Source: Syntrophaceae bacterium UBA4778 (GTDB lineage: Bacteria; Desulfobacterota; Syntrophia; Syntrophales; UBA4778). Taken from it: a stretch of DNA of 9,627 nt. Each line of letters starts with the position of its first letter. The stretch's first letter is position 1. The stretch lies in assembly GCA_002403175.1 (NCBI GenBank), contig DHHG01000076.1, forward strand, positions 1 through 9,627. Reading direction: 5' to 3'. A program made the translations under genes and the position numbers. The notes under the pieces were generated by a model, which saw only the letters and a list, made by a program, of their open reading frames with translations, ran no database searches and was not told where the DNA came from. This document shows, one piece after another, positions 1 to 9,627 of the stretch.

Positions 1-2
1 CG

Positions 3-257
3 TATTCTTTTGAAAAATCAGTTCGCAGAACAGCAAAAAATAAGGAAAGCATAGCAAGGAAAGGGGATGGAAAATCTACGAATACTAGCCTGGTACTTGG
101 TCTGATTCGGGAGAGCAAAGGCGGTATTACCACTCCGGAATTGAAAAAGAAGACAGGGTTGGCAGACAAACAGATATGGCCGATTATTTATAAAGCCGAA
201 AAGCAGGGCAAAATCAAAAAAGCAGACCGGGGCGTGTATATAGCTCAAATCCGATAA
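3..257 (+). CDS. winged-helix domain protein, C-terminal part (5' end outside window)
   Basis: The reading frame is open from the first bases of the window to a TAA at 255-257, giving 84 residues. It contains no in-frame ATG, so the true start lies upstream. The first 25 or so residues are basic and low in complexity and look like a linker. The rest (about 29-82) has the rhythm of a small winged helix: helix (LVLGLIRESKGG), a second helix after ITTPELKKKTGL, a recognition-like helix (DKQIWPIIYKAEKQGKI), then a short wing ending in DRGVYIA. This pattern is known from MarR/ROK-like and histone-like wHTH modules that bind DNA. The DNA-binding role is inferred from the fold pattern only, and the full protein could carry another domain upstream. 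The stop overlaps the 11-bp palindrome CCGATAATCGG, too tight for a hairpin. Confidence 0.65.
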   Translation, partial: YSFEKSVRRTAKNKESIARKGDGKSTNTSLVLGLIRESKGGITTPELKKKTGLADKQIWPIIYKAEKQGKIKKADRGVYIAQIR

Positions 258-483
258 TCGGGATCAGTTCTAGATGAGAATCAAGCCATATTTCTTATAT
301 TCGTGATGTATTTTGAATGAATTTCAGCGATTCTGATTCGATCGGAAATTTCTATTCTGAGAAAGGGGGGATTCATGGGGATTAAAGGATTGTAGACTGC
401 CGCAAACGGTTGTGTATGAAATGTAATACTCGCCCTAAGAATGAAAATAAAATGGGTTACCTTCTTTTGGTTGGGTATGGATA

Positions 484-803
484 ATTAATTCTTTAAGCAC
501 AGAAAGGGAGATTAGGATTATGAAGAAAATAATAGTTCTCATCGGAGCCGTTGTGGTTCTGGGTTTGGGATATAAATTCTATCTTTCTCCATGGCTGATG
601 GCCACCAGGAATTCTACAGCAGCCTGTCAATCATGTCACATACAGAAATAGGGTACGATCTTATTTTGGACACGAATTATTGATTCTTTTAGGCATAGAA
701 AAGGGAGGTTAGAATAATGAAGAAGATTGTTGTTCTGCTGGCAGCCATTCTGATTTTTGCTGTCGGGTATACCTATCTTGTCTCTTCATGGCTGATGACC
801 CGG
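484..803 (+). repeat. tandem degenerate duplication of a leader and N-terminal coding segment
   Basis: Two stretches, about 484-607 and 676-803, are recognisable copies of each other. Both run from an AT-rich segment (ATTCTTT-AGCA) through a purine-rich ribosome-binding site (AGAAAGGGAGAT / GAAAAGGGAGGTTAG) into ATGAAGAA and on to a shared CATGGCTGATG. The encoded N-termini match at 13 of the first 27 residues, with conservative changes elsewhere. Similarity stops shortly after the WLM motif. This reads as an old tandem gene duplication in which the upstream copy lost most of its body. Confidence 0.7.
520..651 (+). CDS. 43-residue membrane-anchored small protein with a CxxCH motif; truncated paralogue of the next gene
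   Basis: ATG at 520 is preceded by AAAGGGAG at a usable distance and opens a 43-codon frame ending at TAG 649-651. Residues 1-20 are a hydrophobic helix with a Lys-Lys start (MKKIIVLIGAVVVLGLGY), a signal-anchor type. The N-terminus resembles that of the gene at 717, down to the WLM motif at residues 25-27. The last part, TAACQSCHIQK, shares nothing with that gene and contains Cys-x-x-Cys-His, the motif that covalently binds haem c when exported. Either this is the stub of a decayed duplicate and the motif is chance, or it is a genuine membrane-tethered mini-protein. The good ribosome-binding site favours translation; the small size and the adjacent paralogue favour a remnant. No frame downstream restores homology to the SRPBCC body. 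Confidence 0.45.
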   Translation: MKKIIVLIGAVVVLGLGYKFYLSPWLMATRNSTAACQSCHIQK

Positions 804-1409
804 GGTGCTACCAAGGAGGAGGTTACAATGGTTCTCCCTGGCGATGAGCTGCTTGCTCCGAATCCTAAGTTCAATATGACCCATGCAGTTACTGTAAATG
901 CTCCGCCTTCCAAAATTTGGCCATGGCTGGTTCAAATGGGGCAGAACCGTGCCGGTTTCTACAGCTTTGAAAAACTGGAGAGGTTTTTCGGATTCGATAT
1001 CCACAATACCTACCGAATTGTTCCTGAATGGCAGAATGATATGAAAGCGGGTTATTTTGTGAAATTTCACCGCAATGGCATTGGTATGTGGGTACACTCC
1101 GTGCAGAATGGAAAAGCCATTGTGATGCTGGCCGATTCACAAAAGCCGATGAAGCCCGAACCGGACAAATGGGAGTTTTTCCTCCCGTATCCGAAAGGGA
1201 TGGTTTATAACTGGAGTTTCAATACAATTGAATTGCCGGACGGAAAAACACGCCTTATTATAAGATCTCTGGCAAGCTGGAACTCTACAAATGTTGTTCT
1301 CGACGGGATAATTAGCTTCTTCGCCGAATGCTCCTGTGCCATTATGGACTGGCAGATGATTAACGAATTAAAGCAATTGGCAGAGGGAACCCATCCGGCC
1401 CAGCGCTAA
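717..1409 (+). CDS. SRPBCC (START/polyketide-cyclase-like) family protein with N-terminal membrane anchor
   Basis: The product is 230 residues. The start is set by AAAGGGAGG a few bases upstream of ATG 717. Residues 4-24 form a hydrophobic anchor (VVLLAAILIFAVGYTYLVSSW), so the rest is probably on the outer face of the inner membrane. From about residue 56 the sequence reads as an SRPBCC domain: an opening strand HAVTVNAPPSKIWPWLVQMG, then NRAGFYSFEKLERFFGFDIHN, which is characteristic of a widespread bacterial SRPBCC group, followed by alternating strands (GIGMWVHSVQNGKAIVML, RLIIRSLASW) and a C-terminal helix (about 195-222) expected to close the hydrophobic cavity. Such folds bind hydrophobic ligands; no catalytic function can be assigned here. 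A conserved-looking CSC sits at 205-207. The gene directly follows its truncated relative, and a strong hairpin lies about 50 bp after its stop. Confidence 0.8.
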   Translation: MKKIVVLLAAILIFAVGYTYLVSSWLMTRGATKEEVTMVLPGDELLAPNPKFNMTHAVTVNAPPSKIWPWLVQMGQNRAGFYSFEKLERFFGFDIHNTYRIVPEWQNDMKAGYFVKFHRNGIGMWVHSVQNGKAIVMLADSQKPMKPEPDKWEFFLPYPKGMVYNWSFNTIELPDGKTRLIIRSLASWNSTNVVLDGIISFFAECSCAIMDWQMINELKQLAEGTHPAQR

Positions 1410-1933
1410 AATCCAAAATGGAATGCGCTCAGGTCTTTCATTACGTTATATTCAACTTTCGGGGATGAGTCATCCTGATGGATGATCTCATCCCCGAAAA
1501 GGGAAGACATTTTGATCGAGAACAGGTTCAACATCGTTTCTATTCAATAATATTGATTGATATCACAAACGGCTGAACCGGCGGATCGCCCCCCGACCGG
1601 GGAAAATGAATTTTATTAGTTCCGGTCAATAGAATAGAAATCCGTTTATGAGTGATATTTGCAATTATTTTCGGATCTGTGAAAAGGTTCATCCTATAAA
1701 CGCCATTTCTGTCGGTAATCGAAAAGAGACCTGTTTCGCCGCATTATCTCTGCCATCCAATGCCAATGTCCCGCCATCAAATTGCATTTCACACCCCCCA
1801 AGGCGGATCAAGGTTTCAAAAGGCACTTTCCCGTTAAATGGATTTATCCTGATGTTTTTCACAAAAAAAAGAGTTCTTATGGTTTGATTGCAGAAGCAGC
1901 CTTAATCGTCGAGGTTGAATTAGGGAGAAAAGC
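1410..1933. other. 524-bp gap without a supported gene
   Basis: Apart from the 1457-1499 hairpin, this stretch holds only weak open frames. A + strand frame at 1648-1887 lacks a ribosome-binding site and has unconvincing composition. On the minus strand, a 57-codon GTG frame (1862 to 1689) and a 50-codon ATG frame (1692 to 1540) overlap by ATGA; the first has protein-like composition but no ribosome-binding site. A short GC-rich patch at about 1575-1605 (GGCGGATCGCC, CCCCGACCGGGG) stands out from the AT-rich surroundings. No clear promoter for the gene at 1934 could be picked out. Confidence 0.5.
1457..1499. terminator. strong hairpin downstream of the SRPBCC gene, no U-tract
   Basis: The left arm (1457-1475) and right arm (1480-1499) pair over 19 bp with one bulged base around a TGAT loop; the core is CGGGGATGAG / CTCATCCCCG. 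It lies 48 bp after the stop at 1409 and faces no gene on the other strand. The right arm is followed by A and G residues rather than a T run, so this is not a textbook intrinsic terminator. It may end transcription with Rho or protect the 3' end of the mRNA. Confidence 0.5.
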
Positions 1934-2539
1934 GTGAGATCGGATATTTTAACTAAAATGCTATCAGAATTGACGGAAACGGCAAAAACTCTTGTCAATC
2001 CGGCATTACACCAATGGAAAAAAGAAGGTGGCCGGGTCCTTGGGTATACATGCAGTTATTTGCCCAGAGAAATTGCAACGGCTGCAGGACTGCTACCTTT
2101 TCGTATGAGAGCCAATTCCAGTACGGGGACTGAATTATCCGATGCTTACTTCAGCAGCTTCAATTGCAGTTTTGCCCGGCATTGTTTTGATCTGGCCTTA
2201 AAAGGGGGGTATAAATTTCTCGACGGGGTGGTTTTTCTGAACTGTTGTGACCACATTCGCCGCATATATGATAATTGGAGACGGAATATTGAGAATCCTT
2301 CCTATCTGAAATTCTTGAGCCTTCCCCAAAAGAATGAAGCTCCACAGGTTGTCCGCTTCAGGGGGGAACTGGAGGATTTTAAGACCAGTCTGGAGGAATA
2401 CTTTGATGTTAAAATAAATAAGGAGAAACTGAGGGACGCCATTAAAACGCATAATGAGACAAGAGGTCTCCTTCGGAAGATCTACAATCTTAGGAGAAAG
2501 AAAAATCTCCCATTTCCGGGGCTGAAATGCTGGCGATAA
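1934..2539 (+). CDS. 2-hydroxyacyl-CoA dehydratase / benzoyl-CoA reductase family subunit, N-terminal part (frameshifted gene)
   Basis: The frame opens with GTG at 1934, supported by AGGGAG at 1922-1927 with a 6-nt gap. It encodes the N-terminal half of an HgdB/BcrC-type subunit (COG1775). Visible family features are GYTCSYLPREI (Cys40), AGLLPFRMR, AYFSSFNCSFARHC (Cys78, Cys84), YKFLDGVVFLNCCDHIRR (Cys104/105) and YDNWRR. In this family conserved cysteines at the GYxC and xxCD positions help hold a [4Fe-4S] cluster used in radical elimination or ring reduction on CoA thioesters. Up to about residue 188 the frame is good family sequence. The last 13 residues are out-of-frame read-through, ending at 2539. 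The true continuation is in the frame of the next entry, so the two together (about 390 residues) make one normal-length subunit. As written, the product would be half a protein and probably inactive. Confidence 0.85.
   Translation: MRSDILTKMLSELTETAKTLVNPALHQWKKEGGRVLGYTCSYLPREIATAAGLLPFRMRANSSTGTELSDAYFSSFNCSFARHCFDLALKGGYKFLDGVVFLNCCDHIRRIYDNWRRNIENPSYLKFLSLPQKNEAPQVVRFRGELEDFKTSLEEYFDVKINKEKLRDAIKTHNETRGLLRKIYNLRRKKNLPFPGLKCWR
2491..2526 (+). other. -1 frameshift junction within the dehydratase-family gene
   Basis: Upstream of about 2498 the family sequence is in the frame of 1934. Downstream, the frame of 2527 reads SPISGAEMLAITV, a conserved segment of the family, beginning before the ATG at 2527. 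A TAG at 2491-2493 closes that frame on the left, so the switch must fall within roughly 2494-2505. One base inserted in the A5 run at 2501-2505 would join the halves as RRKKKSPISGAEM. AGGAG at 2492-2496 lies 4 nt before the run, but the run is not a good slippery heptamer (G AAA AAT in the zero frame). A homopolymer deletion, either real or from sequencing, is the simplest reading. Confidence 0.8.
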
Positions 2540-3096
2540 CTGTTTCCGGTACCGCCATCCCCATTCAAAAATACAATCTTCTGCTAAAGGAGTTAATTGA
2601 ACTTTTGGGAAAAAAGGAGAGTAACAGGGCCTATCGTGCCAGGGTGCTGGTTATCGGAGGGATCTTGGACGACCCTGCCTATATCAAGATCATAGAAGAT
2701 CAAGGAGCCCTGGTGGTAGCCGATTCTACTTGCTTGGGGTCCAGATTGTTTTTTGAGGATGTGGACGAACACGCAGAGGATCCCTTGATGTCCCTTGCCG
2801 AATATATCCTGGTGAAAAGTCCTTCTTGTCCGCGATTTGGAGACCGCGAGCCTCGGGCCGATTTTGTGCGGAAACTCGTAAATGATTATGCAATTGATGG
2901 TGTCATATGCGAACGCATGGCCTTTTGCGAACAATGGGGCTTTGAGCAATTCATGATTGAAACAGATCTGGAAAAAGATGGCATTCCTTGCCTGCTCCTG
3001 GAAAGAGAATACCGATTGAATAGTATCGGTCAGATGAGGACGAGGGTTCAGGAATTTATGGAGAAGATGAAGGGGGCAGGCGTAAAAGATTCTTAA
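2527..3096 (+). CDS. 2-hydroxyacyl-CoA dehydratase / benzoyl-CoA reductase family subunit, C-terminal part (frameshifted gene)
   Basis: This is the C-terminal half of the gene begun at 1934. The ATG at 2527 is an internal methionine of the family motif ISGAEM rather than a real start, and it has no proper ribosome-binding site. The sequence shows a flavodoxin-like alternation typical of the family's second domain: RARVLVIGGILDDP (residues 38-50), GALVVADSTCLGSRLFF (60-76), then DGVICERMAFCEQWGFE (124-140) with Cys134 at the position of the family's conserved FC cysteine. It closes with IPCLLLEREY and IGQMRTRVQEFMEKM, the usual C-terminal signature. No second subunit follows; a 627-bp gap leads to the regulator. 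The intact protein would be a paralogue of the partial gene at 9072. Confidence 0.85.
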   Translation: MLAITVSGTAIPIQKYNLLLKELIELLGKKESNRAYRARVLVIGGILDDPAYIKIIEDQGALVVADSTCLGSRLFFEDVDEHAEDPLMSLAEYILVKSPSCPRFGDREPRADFVRKLVNDYAIDGVICERMAFCEQWGFEQFMIETDLEKDGIPCLLLEREYRLNSIGQMRTRVQEFMEKMKGAGVKDS

Positions 3097-3723
3097 CATA
3101 CGAAAACAGCCCAGAATGGGAGCACCTGAAGAAAAAGAAATGAAGCAATTCAGGAATCGGTTATCCATATTCATAGCCCTGATATCGGTGCTTTAAGCTG
3201 TTCTGCACTTCAGATGCATTTCCCTGGGAAAACAAATTCAGTTCATATGTAGATTATCGAACATCATCCTGGGGGAGTTTTGTCACTCCCGCCCCAATCC
3301 CACCCGGTATTAACAATTGTGATATGTTTGAGTCTGGTTCTCTATGCATTCTTAGCGATTGCGTTATGTGAATTTTTGCATAACTATCTATAAATTTTGA
3401 CATTACTGCCTTGTTTAATATTGAATTATCTGATACATAGAAAAAATCCTATCTTGCCCATGTGCTTTTTTCTACATCAGAACAGAAGAATCTCAACGTT
3501 AGAGTGTGTTTTTCGAAGTTTTGAACCAAAATAAAATAAATAAAAATTAAAAAAATTTTTTATCCATATACAAAATATTTTTCAGGACAGAATCTAATCT
3601 CGATGAAACAGAGTGGATTTAGTATGGTTGGGTTCTCTTGAAAGACTTTGTAGTGATTTGAAGCCTTTCACTTCAGGAGATGTCTTCAGATTTCAAAATC
3701 CTAAGATGTTGGAGGATGGATTG
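3097..3723. other. AT-rich 627-bp intergenic region upstream of the regulator
   Basis: No gene is supported here. A 6-bp hairpin, GGGAGT (3273-3278) with ACTCCC (3285-3290), may mark the end of the preceding transcript but has no T run. An inverted repeat GTTATG (3363-3368) / CATAAC (3379-3384) with a 10-bp spacer could be an operator. A perfect TTGACA lies at 3397-3402 without a well-spaced -10. From about 3520 to 3595 the sequence is extremely AT-rich, including A7T6 near 3549-3561, suggestive of bent promoter DNA. A GTG at 3613 and an ATG at 3706 are in frame with the regulator but lack ribosome-binding sites. Confidence 0.5.
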
Positions 3724-5787
3724 ATGGACTCTAAACAGAATATGACCGACAGGATTTATGTAGATAATGAGGTCGATCTCGATAGAGACATCAATGCATT
3801 CAATGAAGCGCTCTACAAAATACTGGACTATTCTCCCGAAAGGGAATTGCTGGATGATAAAATTCATCTGAAAGAGCTGTTTTATTCTCGGATGCAGAAA
3901 ATGAAAGAGAATCTTCGCGTGCTCAAAAAGGAAATTGCTGCAAGGCAGGAAGTAGAATCGGCATTGCGAAACGAAAAAGAATTTTCACAACATGTCATTG
4001 AGGCAATACCGTCTATATTCTACATGTTTGATGAAAGTTTAAGAATGGTAAAATGGAATAAAAACTTAGAATATGCCACTGGGTATTCCCCCGAAGAGAT
4101 GCGGAACTTCAATGTAATAAATTTTGTTGAAGGAGACGATAAAAATATTATTTTGGAGAAAATCACCGAAGCTTTTCGGGAGGGAAAATTAATATCTTAT
4201 CCTTGTGCTGAATTGGTCAACAAGAAAGAGGGGAAAAAATCCCTCCATTATTTCACCGGAGTGAGAACTATCATCAATAATAAAAAATTTATTATTGGTG
4301 TTGGCATCGATATTTCCCAGTTGGAAAAGTCAAAAAAAGCTTTGCAGGAACGTGAAATGCAGCTGAATCTGGCAGCTGAATCTGCTGGGGCGGGACTTTG
4401 GTCGATTGATACCAGCACTGGAAGAGGGTGGGCTACTCAGATCGCGCTTGCATTGCATAATCTTGTGCCGGATCCGGATACTACACTGAATTCGCTATTC
4501 ACAATTATGCATCCGCAAGATCGTGAGCGAGTAAAGGCTGCCATTCAGGATGCGATCCAAAACAAGACGATGTATTATGTTGAATACAGAATAATGCTTC
4601 CGGATGGAAATATTCGCTGGTTGGCAACCAAAGGGAGAATACATTCCCATTCTCCCAAGGCTTCCGAAAGATTGATGGGCGTCTCCATGGACATTACGGA
4701 ACGCAAGGTCATGGAAGTACAATTGAAAGAGCGGCTGATCGAGATTGAAAAGCTTAAAAAGCAATTGGAGATGGATAATATTTATTTGCGGCAGGAAGTC
4801 AAAAGTCTTTTCAATCATGATGAAATAATCGGGCAAAGTGAGGCGATCAGGCGTGTTCTTATGATGGCGGAACAAGTCGCCCCCATGGATTCGAACGTGC
4901 TTATCTTGGGAGAGACGGGAACCGGCAAGGAATTGATTGCCAGAGCGATTCACGAAATGAGCAGATGCAAGGGCCGCAATATAGTAACCATAAATTGTGC
5001 GTCCCTTCCGCCCTCATTGATCGAAAGTGAGCTGTTTGGACGGGAAAAGGGGGCATATACAGGAGCCCTGACCAAGATGGTGGGGCGATTTGAGACGGCG
5101 AACGGATCGACGCTATTCCTCGATGAAATAGGGGAACTGCCTTTGGAACTGCAGAGCAAGCTTCTGCGTGTTCTTGAAGTGGGTAAATTCGAAAGATTAG
5201 GATCTTCCAAAACAATTGAAGTAAATGTTCGCCTCATCGCCGCTACGAATCGTGATCTGGCCAATGAAGTAAGGGAAGGCAGGTTCAGGAGAGACTTGTA
5301 TTATCGTCTGAATGTTTTCCCGGTTTGCATTCCGCCATTACGAGAGAGAGTGGAAGATATTCCTGCCTTGGTTTGGTTTTTTGTTAGACAGTTTGAGAAA
5401 AGGATGGGAAAGCGGGTGGATGGCATCACCCAAAAAAGCATGGGCACTCTCAAACAGTATTCATGGCCTGGAAACATCAGGGAACTTAAAAATGTAATTG
5501 AGCACGCCATGATTATGTGCACGGATAAAATACTCAATATCGAGCTCCTGGCCACAGATTCTCAGGATCAGGCGGAATATACTACATTTGAAAGTGTTGA
5601 AAGCAAGAAACGGGATATCGAGCGCAAGTATATTCTTGGCGTCTTAGAGAGTACCGGTTGGCGGATAGCCGGGAAGAACGGAGCCGCTGAAATTATTGGG
5701 ATCAAGAGAACCACCCTGAATGCTAAAATCAAAGCGCTTGGGATTACCAGGCCCTCCATGGTTGTGACAACGGATTTGTCACAATGA
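3724..5787 (+). CDS. PAS-domain sigma54-dependent transcriptional activator (PAS-PAS-AAA+-Fis HTH)
   Basis: The ATG at 3724 is chosen because GGAGGA (3711-3716) lies 7 nt upstream; longer in-frame starts at 3706 (ATG) and 3613 (GTG) lack such a site. The product is 687 residues. After an acidic N-terminus and a helical stretch (about 45-85) come two PAS domains: about 87-200, ending GVGIDISQLEKS, and about 211-328, ending GVSMDITERK, both with the PAC ending. A coiled coil (330-362) leads to the AAA+ domain: Walker A GETGTGKE (396-403), the sigma54-contact loop GAYTGA (443-448, Tyr for the common Phe), Walker B TLFLDEIGELP (463-473), and arginine-rich FRRDLYYRLNVFP (521-533). A Fis-type HTH ends the protein (about 633-672; AAEIIGIKRTTLNAKIKALG). 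There is no receiver domain, so the PAS domains are the likely sensors; no cofactor can be assigned. It probably controls the operon starting at 6305. Confidence 0.93.
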   Translation: MDSKQNMTDRIYVDNEVDLDRDINAFNEALYKILDYSPERELLDDKIHLKELFYSRMQKMKENLRVLKKEIAARQEVESALRNEKEFSQHVIEAIPSIFYMFDESLRMVKWNKNLEYATGYSPEEMRNFNVINFVEGDDKNIILEKITEAFREGKLISYPCAELVNKKEGKKSLHYFTGVRTIINNKKFIIGVGIDISQLEKSKKALQEREMQLNLAAESAGAGLWSIDTSTGRGWATQIALALHNLVPDPDTTLNSLFTIMHPQDRERVKAAIQDAIQNKTMYYVEYRIMLPDGNIRWLATKGRIHSHSPKASERLMGVSMDITERKVMEVQLKERLIEIEKLKKQLEMDNIYLRQEVKSLFNHDEIIGQSEAIRRVLMMAEQVAPMDSNVLILGETGTGKELIARAIHEMSRCKGRNIVTINCASLPPSLIESELFGREKGAYTGALTKMVGRFETANGSTLFLDEIGELPLELQSKLLRVLEVGKFERLGSSKTIEVNVRLIAATNRDLANEVREGRFRRDLYYRLNVFPVCIPPLRERVEDIPALVWFFVRQFEKRMGKRVDGITQKSMGTLKQYSWPGNIRELKNVIEHAMIMCTDKILNIELLATDSQDQAEYTTFESVESKKRDIERKYILGVLESTGWRIAGKNGAAEIIGIKRTTLNAKIKALGITRPSMVVTTDLSQ
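5762..5784. promoter_or_regulatory. perfect 9-bp inverted repeat, candidate activator-binding site
   Basis: TTGTGACAA (5762-5770) and TTGTCACAA (5776-5784) are perfect reverse complements separated by CGGAT. The repeat covers the last codons and reaches the stop of the regulator gene. Its distance upstream of the candidate -24 element (about 115-135 bp) suits an enhancer-like site for a sigma54 activator. It could also form a weak AT-rich hairpin. The half-sites resemble CRP half-sites, but the spacing (11 bp between TGTGA and TCACA) is wrong for CRP/FNR. Confidence 0.45.
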
Positions 5788-5896
5788 CCAATATGCGGTC
5801 GACATTTTACCTCTTTTTGAATCATTCCTAGAATGCATTTCTAAAATATAACAATCATATCAATATACTAGATTTATTTATTTCGTCGTATCTTTC

Positions 5897-5911
5897 TGGC
5901 ACAATCCAAGC
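5897..5911 (+). promoter_or_regulatory. candidate sigma54 (-24/-12) promoter
   Basis: TGGCACAATCCAAGC has the exact -24 element TGGCAC and the invariant GG and GC spaced by 10 bp, as in the consensus TGGCAC-N5-TTGC. The -12 box reads AAGC, not TTGC, so it would be a weak match. It is the only intergenic TGGCAC noticed in the window, and it lies between a sigma54 activator and the operon that activator is likely to control. Confidence 0.45.
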
Positions 5912-5918
5912 ATTATAA

Positions 5919-6108
5919 AATGCACTGGTTTCATTTCAGCGTGAGTTTTATCAAGATAACTCTGATTTAAAAGAGCGCATGTGGGTTGATGCGATTGAAA
6001 GAAGTTATACAAGCCACCCCGGAGGACAAGCCCCCCTTACATGAACGTAATCGCAGAAGTGTTCTGCATAATATAGGCTATGTTAAGTCAGAGCAGGAGC
6101 TTGTTTAA
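5919..6108 (+). pseudogene. possible decayed small coding sequence with one frameshift
   Basis: From 5919 an open frame reads protein-like sequence (for example YQDNSDLKERMWVDAIERS, then SHPGGQAPLT) to a TGA at 6042-6044. Removing one C from the C6 run at 6031-6036 continues it as HERNRRSVLHNIGYVKSEQ to a TAA at 6106-6108, giving about 60 residues. There is no convincing start or ribosome-binding site (the only Met, ATG 5979, follows AAGAG closely). The composition looks more like coding than intergenic sequence, but I do not recognise a family. It could be a remnant or chance. Confidence 0.25.
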
Positions 6109-6304
6109 GATCTGGATAAGGGCTAGACGCCTTTAAAAGGATCTGGAGCGTTAGGAAAGAATCTCCAGTAGGAATGTGCAAATCGAAGATCTCCCGATTA
6201 CTAGAATTTCCAAATTAAAATCCAAGTTCCCAAATAAAGATAATGGGATTCCTTTTTAATGTACTTTAAACAAAGAAGGTAAAAGAAGAAAGGGAGGGGT
6301 ATTT

Positions 6305-7651
6305 ATGGGTATTCATGATGCGAATTATCCGATGGTTAACAATGGTGTGACGGGGGGCAATTATGATTACATCGTAGTCGGGACCGGTCCCGGTGGTGCC
6401 ACGGTAGGAAGGGATTTGGCCAAGGCCAAGAAGAAGGTCCTCTTCATTGAATGGGGCGGTTTTACGGGACCTGGAGGCGGTCAGATTCAGGCCTTCAAAG
6501 AGATGCTCATGCCTTTTAAGGCCATGTACGTTATGCCCCGGCAGATCCTCGGTTGTGTCCGGGCTGTCACGGTGGGAGGAGCTTCGCTCTTCTTCTACGG
6601 GTCATCCGTTCCGCTGCCCCTGGAGATGTTCAAGAAGCGCGGCGTCGATCTGAAGGATTCTCTGGCCGAAGTCTATCAGGATATTCCGTTTCTCAAACCT
6701 CTTCCGGAGGAAGTGCTTACTCCCATCGCAAAAGCGACCATGGAAGCCGCCAACAGCCTGGGAGGCGTTTTCAACTGGAATCCCATTGATAAATTCATCG
6801 ATGCCAAAAGAATAACGCCTGATTGGAAGTTCGGGGTAACCGATCCGAAGGAGATCAAATGGACCTCCCATATCTGGATCAGAGAGGCCATGCAGGCAGG
6901 CGCCGGACTGCTGACGCGCTCGAAGGTTACCAGAGTTCTCTTTGAAGGCAAGAGGGCCGTGGGAGTCGAATATAAAAACAAGGGAAAGCTGTACAAGGCC
7001 TATGCCAATACCATCGTCCTAGCCGCCAGCGGAATCGGTACGCCCGTTATTTTGATGAAGGCAGGGATGAAGAACATCGCAACCGATTTCTTCTTCGATC
7101 CGTTTGCGACCATTACCGGTCAGCATCCGCACCTCACGAGAGTTCAGAGCGAGATACCGATGCAGTGCGGTCAGTATTTCCCGGACGACCACATCGTCAT
7201 GACGGATCTGTACATCCCCGGATATTTGATCGAGAACATGGTTCACCTCGAAGCATTCAGAGTCGATCATCTCTTCAAGATGAAGCACACCATGAATATT
7301 ATGATCAAGCTGGCAGATGAGATGAAGGGTGGAAAGCTTTGTTCCAACGGTTATCCTCTTAAGCATATGACCAGTATCGACTGGAAGAGGATGAAGGTCG
7401 GCGTTGATCGTGGCAAGGCTATTCTGAAAAAAGCTGGCTGCAAAGGCGTCCACGGTCTGTGGTATCTGGGTGCCCATCCGGGCGGAACAGTCAAAATAGG
7501 GACCGGCGTTGATCACAACCTCCAGACGCCTTTTGATAATCTGTATGTTTGCGACTGCTCAGTTATTCCCGAGCCGTGCGGATTGCCCCCTGTGACGACG
7601 ATCATCGCGCTGGGTAAATACCTGAGCAAGCACCTGCTGAGCAAGAAATAG
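6305..7651 (+). CDS. GMC-type FAD-dependent oxidoreductase, short form
   Basis: The product is 448 residues; AGGGAGG (6291-6297) sits 7 nt before the ATG. An N-terminal Rossmann motif binds FAD: YDYIVVGTGPGGATVGRDLAK, with GxGxxG at 26-31 and the acidic Glu49 ending the second strand (VLFIEWG). The GMC signature region appears as VTVGGASLFFYGSS (88-101), and NTIVLAASGIGTPVILMKAG (235-254) matches the second GMC signature. The C-terminal domain carries WYLGAHPGGTVKIG (387-399), with His391 at the place of the catalytic histidine, and NLYVCDCSVIPEPCGLPPVTT (412-432). Where classical enzymes have Asn or His (NPTLT), this protein has Leu-Pro-Pro. It is also shorter than the usual 500-600 residues. 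It presumably oxidises or reduces an alcohol/carbonyl or C-C bond; the substrate is unknown. It heads the operon with the helical protein and the dehydratase-family gene. Confidence 0.85.
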   Translation: MGIHDANYPMVNNGVTGGNYDYIVVGTGPGGATVGRDLAKAKKKVLFIEWGGFTGPGGGQIQAFKEMLMPFKAMYVMPRQILGCVRAVTVGGASLFFYGSSVPLPLEMFKKRGVDLKDSLAEVYQDIPFLKPLPEEVLTPIAKATMEAANSLGGVFNWNPIDKFIDAKRITPDWKFGVTDPKEIKWTSHIWIREAMQAGAGLLTRSKVTRVLFEGKRAVGVEYKNKGKLYKAYANTIVLAASGIGTPVILMKAGMKNIATDFFFDPFATITGQHPHLTRVQSEIPMQCGQYFPDDHIVMTDLYIPGYLIENMVHLEAFRVDHLFKMKHTMNIMIKLADEMKGGKLCSNGYPLKHMTSIDWKRMKVGVDRGKAILKKAGCKGVHGLWYLGAHPGGTVKIGTGVDHNLQTPFDNLYVCDCSVIPEPCGLPPVTTIIALGKYLSKHLLSKK

Positions 7652-7659
7652 CAGTGCCG

Positions 7660-7679
7660 GGGGGCAAGAGATTGCCCCC
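7660..7679. other. intercistronic hairpin after the GMC gene
   Basis: GGGGGCAA (7660-7667) pairs perfectly with TTGCCCCC (7672-7679) around a GAGA tetraloop, which fits the very stable GNRA class. It begins 8 nt after the GMC stop codon and is followed by six A residues, not T, so it is unlikely to terminate transcription on the + strand. It could stabilise the upstream mRNA or set different levels of the GMC protein and the downstream genes. Confidence 0.6.
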
Positions 7680-7773
7680 AAAAAAGCAAATTGGTCCGGC
7701 ATCATGGAATTTATGAGTACCAGATGCTGTAGTGGATTATCTGCAAAAGAAACCCTCAAGGAGGATAGCGAAT

Positions 7774-9075
7774 ATGTTGCCTAGTCCAAAACAGGAACAG
7801 ATGGCGGCAGCAATAGGGAATGTTGTTACCGATATATTATACCATCCGAAGACCATTCCCATGATCTCGCTGGTTGCCGTAAACGTAATCAATAATTGGG
7901 CGGAAGGTGGCAGGCTCAGAAGGATTTTGGCCGCACCCGTCAAATTTATTCTAAGCAAACAGATCAGCAAACAGAGGAGCGGCCATAGTTTCCGGCCGGA
8001 GACAAGCATATCAGGCAGCGTGGGAAAGCTTATCACGCTTTTTGCCGCCAGTGTCAACGAAAACCGCCGGGTCCAGAACCCGGATGTTCGGGATCTCAAA
8101 CGAGGAGACGCAACCAAGAATTTCCTGGCCAGTACAGATTTTGGCGAGATCCTGGAAATGGTCGAGGGGTGCGAGGAAGGCGCTTTGAAAACCATGCAGG
8201 CCTTCAACGAGGAACTCTGGAAGTACCCCAGCAAGTTCGCAACCCTTGCGGCCATGGTGGTTCCTCTTTCCAGGATCGTGACGCGATGCTCGCGCGAGTT
8301 CCTGACCCCCATCGATAAATTGATCGGACCGGATCTGCTTGCCGATATCCTTCTGGCACTAGTGAAGGGAGTGGATGGAGCCGAAGTCGGTCACCTTGTC
8401 AATACCATCAAAGAGCTCATCCGCAGAGCACACACCGGAAGCTTACTGCTGGGCAAGGGAGACAAATCCCTGCTGGAGATTTATCTCCAGGACATCATGA
8501 AGGAGTACTACTCTGTAGCCGATCCTGAGCTTGCCAGAAAGCTGCCCATCTATTTCGGCGAGATGAAAGAAGCCATTGCCAATGCCAATGCCAAGGCGCT
8601 CGAAGAAAATCCCAAGGCCCTGTTGGCGAAGGTATCTTCCGCCGGAGCCGTCAAGACCTCCGCGATCAAAGCCAAATCGTGCAAATTGAAGGTTCTCGAG
8701 GGCATTGAGGAAGCCGACCTGAAGGCATCGGTATCTGTCAGCATGACAGAGCTGGATACGTACGAGATAGCCGATTACATCAATACCGGCTTGAAATTTC
8801 TCAATAAGATATATGAAGCCGATCCGAATTTGATCTCCAGCACGTTCCGCGGGATTGCGGATTCGATCAATTCCGAGGAGGTTGCCAAAACAGTTCAGTG
8901 GCTTATCCCAGATCTGATTGATGCGATTCGTCCATTGTCTCCGGCCTTCGTTCCGGCTCTTGCGCAGGGGCTCAATGAGCTTGCTGCAAGTGCGGATATC
9001 GGTTCGGGTAACGGTTATGCAAAAGGCTCGGCCCTACTTGGTCAGACCGTAGGCGAAGCGGGGGGTGTGCAATGA
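7774..9075 (+). CDS. uncharacterised all-helical protein of a redox operon
   Basis: ATG 7774 is chosen because AAGGAGG (7758-7764) precedes it by 9 nt; an in-frame GTG at 7732 adds 14 residues but lacks such a site. The product is 433 residues and I do not recognise a family. It appears almost wholly alpha-helical, without a signal peptide or clear membrane segment, and is rich in Leu, Ala, Ile and Lys. Two helical blocks stand out: about 112-225 (from TKNFLASTDFGEILEMV to VNTIKELIRRAHTGSLLLG) and about 325-405 (DTYEIADYINTGL to LAQGLNELAAS). They are joined by an Ala/Lys-rich stretch (265-305) that may be flexible. The only cysteines are Cys133, Cys172 and Cys303, so a buried metal cluster is unlikely. 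Its position between a flavoprotein and a dehydratase-family subunit, with an ATGA overlap to the latter, suggests a scaffold, assembly or subunit role. That is inference. Confidence 0.85.
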   Translation: MLPSPKQEQMAAAIGNVVTDILYHPKTIPMISLVAVNVINNWAEGGRLRRILAAPVKFILSKQISKQRSGHSFRPETSISGSVGKLITLFAASVNENRRVQNPDVRDLKRGDATKNFLASTDFGEILEMVEGCEEGALKTMQAFNEELWKYPSKFATLAAMVVPLSRIVTRCSREFLTPIDKLIGPDLLADILLALVKGVDGAEVGHLVNTIKELIRRAHTGSLLLGKGDKSLLEIYLQDIMKEYYSVADPELARKLPIYFGEMKEAIANANAKALEENPKALLAKVSSAGAVKTSAIKAKSCKLKVLEGIEEADLKASVSVSMTELDTYEIADYINTGLKFLNKIYEADPNLISSTFRGIADSINSEEVAKTVQWLIPDLIDAIRPLSPAFVPALAQGLNELAASADIGSGNGYAKGSALLGQTVGEAGGVQ

Positions 9076-9627
9076 AAAATAAACATCTGGAAAAATTCAA
9101 TGAAGTAGCGAAATCACTGAACAACTCATTTATTGAAGAATGGAAGAAAAAAGGAGGCAAAGTTGTCGGTTACTCCTGCACCTTTTTGCCCCACGAGGTC
9201 CTTTATGCGGCGGGAATCCTGCCCGTCCGGTTACGCGGGATCGGCACCACCTCCCTGTCCATCGGGGACTCGTATTTCGGCCCGGTAAACTGCAGTGTTC
9301 CCAAGTGCTTTGTTCAAGTGGCGGGACAGGGCGATTATAAATTCCTCGACGGAGCTGCCGTCGGCAATGGCTGCGATTCCATGCGGCGTCTTTTCGATAC
9401 CTGGCGAAAGGCGAACGAGGATTTCCCTGGGGTCCTGCCTCGATTTTTCGAGTACGTTCCCGTGCCGCACAGAGCGAACGATTACAGCATCGATTTTTAT
9501 GCTGAAGAGATAAAGGACTTCATCAAGAAGCTGGAAGCACATTTCGGAGTTAAAGTTACGGAGCAGAAACTGCGGGATTCGATCAAAGTTTACAATGAAA
9601 GTAGGTCGCTTCTGCAGAAATTGGAAG
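9072..9627 (+). CDS. 2-hydroxyacyl-CoA dehydratase / benzoyl-CoA reductase family subunit (3' end outside window)
   Basis: The ATG at 9072 overlaps the preceding stop as ATGA, so the two genes are probably translationally coupled. 185 codons are visible before the window ends. The N-terminal half of an HgdB/BcrC-type subunit (COG1775) is plain: EEWKKKGGKVVGYSCTFLP (Cys36), AAGILPVRLRG, DSYFGPVNCSVPKC (Cys74, Cys79), YKFLDGAAVGNGCDSMRR (Cys101), FDTWRK, and helix KLEAHFGVKVTEQKLRDSIK before the domain joint. Cys36 and Cys101 are at the family's conserved [4Fe-4S] positions. It is a paralogue of the frameshifted gene at 1934, with the same motif order but clearly diverged. Members of this family work as heterodimers with a second, related subunit and an ATP-hydrolysing electron donor, and these would be expected just downstream. 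The reaction could be 2-hydroxyacyl-CoA dehydration, aryl-CoA reduction or another low-potential reduction. Confidence 0.9.
   Translation, partial: MKNKHLEKFNEVAKSLNNSFIEEWKKKGGKVVGYSCTFLPHEVLYAAGILPVRLRGIGTTSLSIGDSYFGPVNCSVPKCFVQVAGQGDYKFLDGAAVGNGCDSMRRLFDTWRKANEDFPGVLPRFFEYVPVPHRANDYSIDFYAEEIKDFIKKLEAHFGVKVTEQKLRDSIKVYNESRSLLQKLE

Follow-up and report, generated by a model that had tools for sequence, protein, structure and literature searches.

The window, by which we mean the whole stretch of DNA analysed here, spans positions 1 to 9,627 of the forward strand of contig DHHG01000076.1 from Syntrophaceae bacterium UBA4778, and three co-directional genes on the plus strand fill its 3' part. 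The first (6305..7651) encodes a GMC-type flavoprotein of 448 aa with the Pfam domains GMC_oxred_N and GMC_oxred_C; the second (7774..9075) encodes HEL, a 433-aa protein of an unnamed family that is probably a helical-repeat partner of a reductase; and the third (9072..9627) encodes Sm, a subunit of the HGD-D (benzoyl-CoA reductase/2-hydroxyacyl-CoA dehydratase) family related to BzdN and HadC, whose N-terminal 185 aa are present before the window edge cuts off the rest (HGD-D Pfam match, E = 1.2e-33). A gap of 122 bp (7652-7773) separates GMC from HEL, and the HEL stop and the Sm start share an ATGA overlap, a layout described in the original prediction for this DNA and confirmed by the coordinates of the open reading frames (ORFs). 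The ATG start of HEL is preceded by AAGGAGG, and an alternative upstream GTG at 7732 would give a protein of 447 aa. We consider it fairly probable that these genes form the 5' end of a conserved gene cluster, the HEL module, specifying an ATP-dependent reductase of very low potential with the architecture of a class I benzoyl-CoA reductase (BCR).

Gene order and co-occurrence of the HEL module

Homologues of HEL were found 91 times among 7999 scored candidates, and an alignment (A1) of 44 HEL homologues and the window protein was scanned against contigs of GTDB representatives, giving 58 loci (L001-L058), one of which, L057, is without a HEL gene call. Genes were labelled using profiles derived from these same loci, and the order counts refer to these 58 loci and the window, each count taking only loci with room for the gene concerned. 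All 58 loci were found via HEL and their neighbours were not preselected. The loci are not independent of each other: L020 and L021 are near-identical, as are L013 and L015, and a single metagenome-assembled genome provides both L001 and L010, the former with GMC upstream and the latter with acyl-CoA-dehydrogenase-like (ACAD-like) genes.

Sm lies directly 3' of HEL in 55 of 55 cases (54 loci and the window), on the same strand and with at most 90 bp between the profile matches, an order far beyond chance. The second HGD-D subunit, Lg, follows Sm in all 47 loci with room, an activator ATPase is present in 37/37, and every one of the 35 loci with at least 7 kb after HEL has a tandem pair of activator ATPases. 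Further downstream there is a protein resembling a domain of acetyl-CoA synthase (ACS-like, or CdhC-like; 32/35 loci, missing in L023, L033 and L053) and a CooC/MinD-like ATPase (28/31, missing in L019, L023 and L053). Two Lg genes occur in 13 of the 35 loci with at least 7 kb after HEL, including both Smithella loci; of the 28 loci with at least 9.5 kb after HEL, 14 have a second Sm and 13 have Lg2. The full order, which varies between loci, is GMC or ACAD-ACAD-HLX-HLX, followed by (TetR)-HEL-Sm-(s79)-Lg(1-2)-ATP-ATP-(Fer4)-ACS-like-CooC-like-(flavodoxin)-Sm2-Lg2-(Fer4)-ATP2, with ATP denoting an activator ATPase. The cluster is seen in sulfate-reducing, syntrophic and spirochaete bacteria. 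The coupling of HEL to an HGD-D complex, suspected from the overlap, is borne out in the relatives, and these also contain the second subunit and the BcrA/HgdC-type ATPase that were to be looked for past the window edge; the window probably continues beyond 9627 as they do. A conserved small protein of ~79 aa without a convincing Pfam match lies beside the Lg gene or genes (e.g. L001 12476-12715), and in L126 (8896-15362) the GMC gene stands downstream of HEL-Sm-Lg-ATP, not upstream.

The link between HEL and Lg is equally apparent across whole genomes. In the phylum of G010, HEL is found at E<=1e-20 in 21 of 395 genomes and the Lg profile at E<=1e-30 in 32 of 395; Lg matches of at least 646 bits fall in exactly those 21 HEL genomes, one in each, with the next best at 289 bits. 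In the phylum of G007, the 13 of 188 genomes with HEL are the same 13 that have Lg at 711 bits or more, the next best match scoring 164 bits. Fisher tests that ignore genome kinship give p = 2.6e-35 for the 395 and 2.6e-20 for the 188 genomes. The Lg score split was set after the gap had been seen, the 4 to 9 best candidates per genome were scored at most, so that weak copies may be missed, and four (phylum of G010) and three (phylum of G007) of these genomes were already among the loci. The set of HEL genomes is nevertheless the set of strong-Lg genomes (34 and 34), in agreement with the linkage to the dehydratase family made in the original prediction.

Cluster ligands and the type of enzyme

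In PMC11971306, the ligands of the double-cubane cluster of BzdN are Cys36, 73, 100, 263, 293 and 327, those of the active site of BzdO are Cys95, 128 and 380, and Glu65 and His131 stand at the Fe-bound water; the same paper describes the double-cubane as lost in the 2-hydroxyacyl-CoA dehydratases (HAD), whose second subunit has only a [4Fe-5S] remnant. The Sm protein of L001 aligns to BzdN at E = 2e-40 and places Cys32, 70, 97, 264, 294 and 328 on the six double-cubane ligands, and every one of the 75 unique Sm/Sm2 copies with at least 340 aa (out of 81 unique and 95 called) has Cys at all six positions. The window Sm has the first three of them at residues 36, 74 and 101, the others lying past the edge. 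In Lg, for which 22 of the 75 unique proteins called were aligned, all from relatives, C135, C164, C414 and E104 are invariant in 22/22 and fall on BzdO Cys95, 128 and 380 and on Glu65. Lg2 has its own invariant C186, C214 and C447 (11/11 aligned, of 22 called), the second of which is off by one column in the alignment with BzdO. NF040772, a double-cubane family, is the top NCBIfam match for Sm (182 bits against a cut-off of 350), and the activators match TIGR00241 at 242 and 255 bits, well over its cut-off of 125. As read from these alignments, the cysteine plan is that of class I BCR, unlike that of HAD or of the double-cubane cluster protein DCCP (6ENO, 7YYL), which shares the six-Cys subunit but is built as a homodimer of two double-cubane subunits, whereas the partner in the module is the three-Cys Lg. 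A six-Cys Sm together with a three-Cys Lg argues for a reductase driven by ATP and against a dehydratase, which is a correction to the original prediction.

One alternative is an ordinary HAD operon with an accessory protein, in which water would be removed from a 2-hydroxyacyl-CoA made or consumed by the GMC protein or the ACAD pair. The module has in common with HadBC/HadI the Pfam family, the activator ATPase family and a three-Cys subunit of Lg type; the top matches of Lg are HadB in NCBIfam (1.2e-10) and 3o3m_A in the PDB, and a hydroxyl-oxidising GMC enzyme would fit hydroxy acids. However, the module Sm keeps in every copy counted the double-cubane ligands that HAD has lost (PMC11971306), a double-cubane reductase is its best NCBIfam match, the activators come in tandem wherever there is room, and ACAD or GMC neighbours set the operon apart from HadBC/HadI. 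We regard a dehydratase as unlikely.

We give a similarly low probability to a diverged class I BCR proper, which would reduce aromatic rings and have HEL as a lineage-specific add-on. The cluster plan, the Glu at the position of Glu65, the two activator ATPases and the alignment of Sm with BzdN are all as expected of the BZD-type enzyme (BzdNO and BzdPQ, PDB 8S02), and an annotation-based survey of coal-seam metagenomes takes bcr-named genes as a marker of aromatic degradation and finds bcrB and bcrC to be far more frequent than bcrA and bcrD (PMC10936416). Against this, no benzoyl-CoA pathway set was recognised by eye in six downstream flanks, although crotonase-like genes are present in three loci, and the HGD-D subunits score far below the BCR family cut-offs and have Asn in place of His131 (see below). 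HEL, ACS-like and CooC-like genes are additions to the BZD plan, as is the second HGD-D pair seen in roughly every other long locus. We know of no bcr, bzd or mbd operon that includes a second HGD-D pair or ACS-like and CooC-like genes, which also counts against a BCR proper.

Exchangeable flavoproteins, accessory proteins and the proposed reaction

Contrary to the original prediction, the flavoprotein upstream of HEL is not a fixed part of the operon. The window protein exceeds the cut-offs of both GMC domains (GMC_oxred_N, 51.3 bits against 23; GMC_oxred_C, 27.7 against 24.6), yet among the 46 loci with at least 2 kb upstream, the window included, GMC is present in only 23, ACAD-like genes take its place in 18, five have neither (L006, L014, L024, L029 and L053) and none has both. 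The earlier expectation that HEL would not be found scattered without its partners holds for the dehydratase-family part, HEL never being found without Sm where there was room (55/55); GMC is not obligatory. When gene calling found both genes, GMC lies upstream and on the same strand as HEL in 29 of 29 loci (drawn from L001-L058, L090, L092 and the window), and the 18 ACAD loci have two ACAD genes each, with the exception of L008, where the contig begins. A HEL tree with 60 rows, built by a quick method (28 GMC, 21 ACAD, 11 unlabelled), shows four label changes, at least three of them forced by starred branches, and the window and L001, both of which combine GMC with a short HEL, fall in a clade of 25 rows whose other members are ACAD or unlabelled.

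Both types of flavoprotein may be unusual enzymes, or use other residues than expected, on account of substitutions at their catalytic positions. The GMC proteins share with known GMC oxidoreductases such as choline dehydrogenase and MftG the N and C domains of Pfam and the HPGGT motif, whose His391 is invariant in 20/20, but they are about 440 aa long and are linked to HGD-D operons in part of their occurrences. The second catalytic residue of known GMC enzymes is His or Asn; here the position reads Leu by eye. The ACAD-like proteins are likewise without the Glu of the EGT motif, with Met in ACD2 and Leu in ACD1 by eye; paired ACAD-like genes of this kind lie at L020 6272-8807 and in other ACAD-type loci. 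Relatives of the GMC protein also occur without HEL beside HGD-D genes (L106 5364-10862, L107, L110 and L111), accompanied by activator ATPases in L106, L107 and L110 and, in L106, by adjoining ACAD-like genes.

The ACS-like and CooC-like genes lend themselves to a different explanation, namely that the Sm-Lg sets are an ATP-driven machine for activation or maturation of a metalloenzyme, with HEL as a dock and the ACS-like and CooC-like proteins handling the target. The 246-aa ACS-like protein has the ACS middle domain only (PF03598, E = 3.9e-12), as found in CdhC/AcsB, and a C-terminal CxxCx5C motif in the three copies inspected by eye (L001, L020, L027); its neighbour is a MinD/CooC-like ATPase, reminiscent of CooC/AcsF, although no model with the name CooC matched it. 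That these genes accompany most operons with room, that two Lg genes are present in loci such as those of Smithella, and that a complete substrate pathway is missing would all suit a maturation machine. The L001 protein, however, unlike CdhC/AcsB, sits in an HGD-D operon and is without the A-cluster domain, the only part present being that which matches 1oao 329-493; Lg keeps a substrate-type active site with its invariant Glu, and the exchangeable flavoprotein and the ACAD-like and crotonase-like neighbours suggest a substrate. We consider a maturation machine very unlikely. HGD-D pairs without HEL are also found with activators, ACS-like and CooC-like genes (L101 1368-12800, L104 4226-10183), and because of this shared company the HEL operons are seen to be one branch of a wider set of operons.

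HEL itself resists assignment to any described family. It has no Pfam match at E<=0.1, a single sub-threshold NCBIfam match (E = 0.087) and no informative PDB match; 45 alignment members searched against Pfam at E<=1 gave scattered weak families only, besides two fusion domains, and PDB and Pfam searches with HEL and the alignment gave chance-level matches apart from the same two domains. Composition, profile alignments and the weak Pfam neighbours suggest an all-helical protein. The ACAD-type operons encode two related proteins, HLX, of about 145 and 217 aa, which hhalign matches to HEL with probabilities of 98.5% (E 1.5e-15) and 97.5% (E 7.5e-12), and additional overlapping matches suggest internal repeats of roughly 100 residues; HEL and HLX make up an unnamed protein family. 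HLX is labelled in none of the 28 GMC-labelled loci of L001-L058, and the HEL proteins of Desulfobacterales with a GMC-type operon mostly have about 490-500 aa. Averaged over 19 residues, Kyte-Doolittle hydropathy in HEL peaks at 1.42, and therefore no transmembrane helix is expected. In one homologue, P0011, an SCP2 domain lies N-terminal to HEL (E 4.4e-7), which hints at a hydrophobic ligand. An SCP2 reading of the small proteins beside GMC in the HEL-less operons L107 and L110 was rejected, there being no Pfam match, and the fused HEL-HGD-D protein P0091, which looks frameshifted within HEL, was given no weight.

We envisage the ATP-dependent reductase as working in the following way. A ferredoxin- or flavodoxin-type protein would deliver electrons to the BcrA/D-type ATPases, which, spending ATP, would hand them on to Sm and its double-cubane [8Fe-9S] cluster, and from there they would reach the single [4Fe-4S] active site of Lg. 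A likely electron donor is the flavodoxin and 4Fe-4S protein encoded between the CooC-like gene and Sm2 in L088 (16239-17084, from Pfam) and by a similar gene in L089 (3006-3839); other operons have a Fer4 protein. The substrate reduced by Lg would be an acyl thioester, either unsaturated or aromatic/alicyclic, and a CoA ester is the likeliest kind on account of the ACAD-like genes upstream in 18 loci and of crotonase-like and CoA-ligase-like neighbours, both of which were named by eye. The crotonase-like gene follows the operon in L010 (17372-18223), L081 (14704-15516, a flank of L003) and L087 (3426-4238), with 82-84% identity, and a CoA-ligase-like gene is present in L019 and L087 (66% identical), as a fragment in L081 and as a remote one in L054. 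The second Sm2-Lg2-ATPase set, where present, would carry out a second step, and the upstream flavoprotein, GMC here and an ACAD-like pair in the sister operons, would add an exchangeable and probably substrate-specific redox step. HEL is presumably co-translated with Sm, and its probable role is to act as a scaffold for the complex or to hold the substrate. The ACS-like and CooC-like proteins probably help to handle CoA or metals. Gene order, co-occurrence, the ligand cysteines and the exchange of flavoproteins are read directly from the sequences, whereas the electron path, the class of substrate, the roles of HEL and of the ACS-like and CooC-like proteins, and the continuation of the window past 9627 are inferred.

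Several observations weigh against such a reductase. The window does not reach Lg, the ATPases or the accessory genes, whose presence in UBA4778 is extrapolated. Six downstream flanks were listed gene by gene, and those of L074, L076, L078, L080, L082 and L084 were scanned with the locus profiles; four of the six listed begin with unrelated-looking genes, the remaining genes there also look unrelated, and no complete substrate pathway is visible, crotonase-like and ligase-like genes together amounting to four loci. L001 Sm scores 146.6 bits against the BzdN model (cut-off 453.8) and L001 Lg 21.4 bits against that of BzdO (cut-off 448.6). The position of BzdO His131 is Asn167 in 22/22 Lg, although the alignment of MbdO is also without a His at +3 from the Cys, and so His131 marks the BZD type only. 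Finally, a GMC protein dedicated to the module is ruled out because its relatives also occur far from HGD-D genes: they are found at E<=1e-20 in 32 of 395 genomes, and of 14 further places (L112-L125) Sm or Lg labels are seen in L118 only, the GMC gene being uncalled in L119.

The superfamily of the core enzyme is a known one. We speculate, and this is a tentative reading only, that the module represents a widespread two-step ATP-driven reduction, in which tandem double-cubane reductases tied together by HEL/HLX and by parts derived from the ACS system act on a class of hydrophobic acyl thioesters not known to be served by any ATP-driven reductase, and in which the substrate is set by GMC or the ACAD-like pair. 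The original suggestion of an undescribed redox module is supported in that the module is conserved in relatives and the literature searched contained no account of it. Enzymes of the class I BCR and HAD family work at redox potentials that are among the lowest in metabolism, and about -1 V may be reached according to PMC11971306. Few substrates of this family are known, and the HEL operon is a concrete target for new reduction chemistry that spans at least two phyla of anaerobes and offers a family-less partner protein and exchangeable flavoproteins. It also calls for care with annotation: the HGD-D subunits of the HEL module come from the family of bcrB and bcrC, and genes given these names in metagenomes may therefore not indicate the degradation of aromatics.

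Other features of the window

Upstream of the operon, a gene at 3613..5787 on the plus strand encodes a PAS-PAS-AAA+-Fis sigma-54-dependent activator (Pfam Sigma54_activat at 233.6 bits, PAS and HTH_8), as the original prediction had stated, and by its position it is a plausible regulator of the operon. A sigma-54-like box, TGGCAC-N5-AAGCA at 5897-5912, ~390 bp 5' of GMC, was discarded; with 4 matches against 3.87 expected it is at chance level. Between GMC and HEL lies a GC-rich perfect 8-bp hairpin with a 4-nt loop (7660..7679, plus strand; z of -1.7 for 51 nt and -2.7 for 126 nt), which has no downstream T-tract and does not appear in the terminator-scan listing of the window; it could be a processing or attenuation site. 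Rfam at gathering thresholds gave no match in the window. For positions 1-716 the ORF list contains nothing that reaches 90 aa, and the 230-aa ORF at 717-1409 matches no entry of Pfam or NCBIfam at E<=0.1.

A second Sm-like HGD-D gene precedes the activator on the plus strand, in two pieces: its N-terminal half (1934..2539) covers HGD-D profile positions 1-153 of 342 and its C-terminal half, in another frame (2527..3096), positions 157-341 of 342. No Lg partner is found 3' of this gene (1934-3096). By eye, the motifs of Cys36, 73 and 100 lie in 1934-2539 and those of Cys263, 293 and 327 in 2527-3096, and the split into two frames reads as a frameshift or an assembly error.

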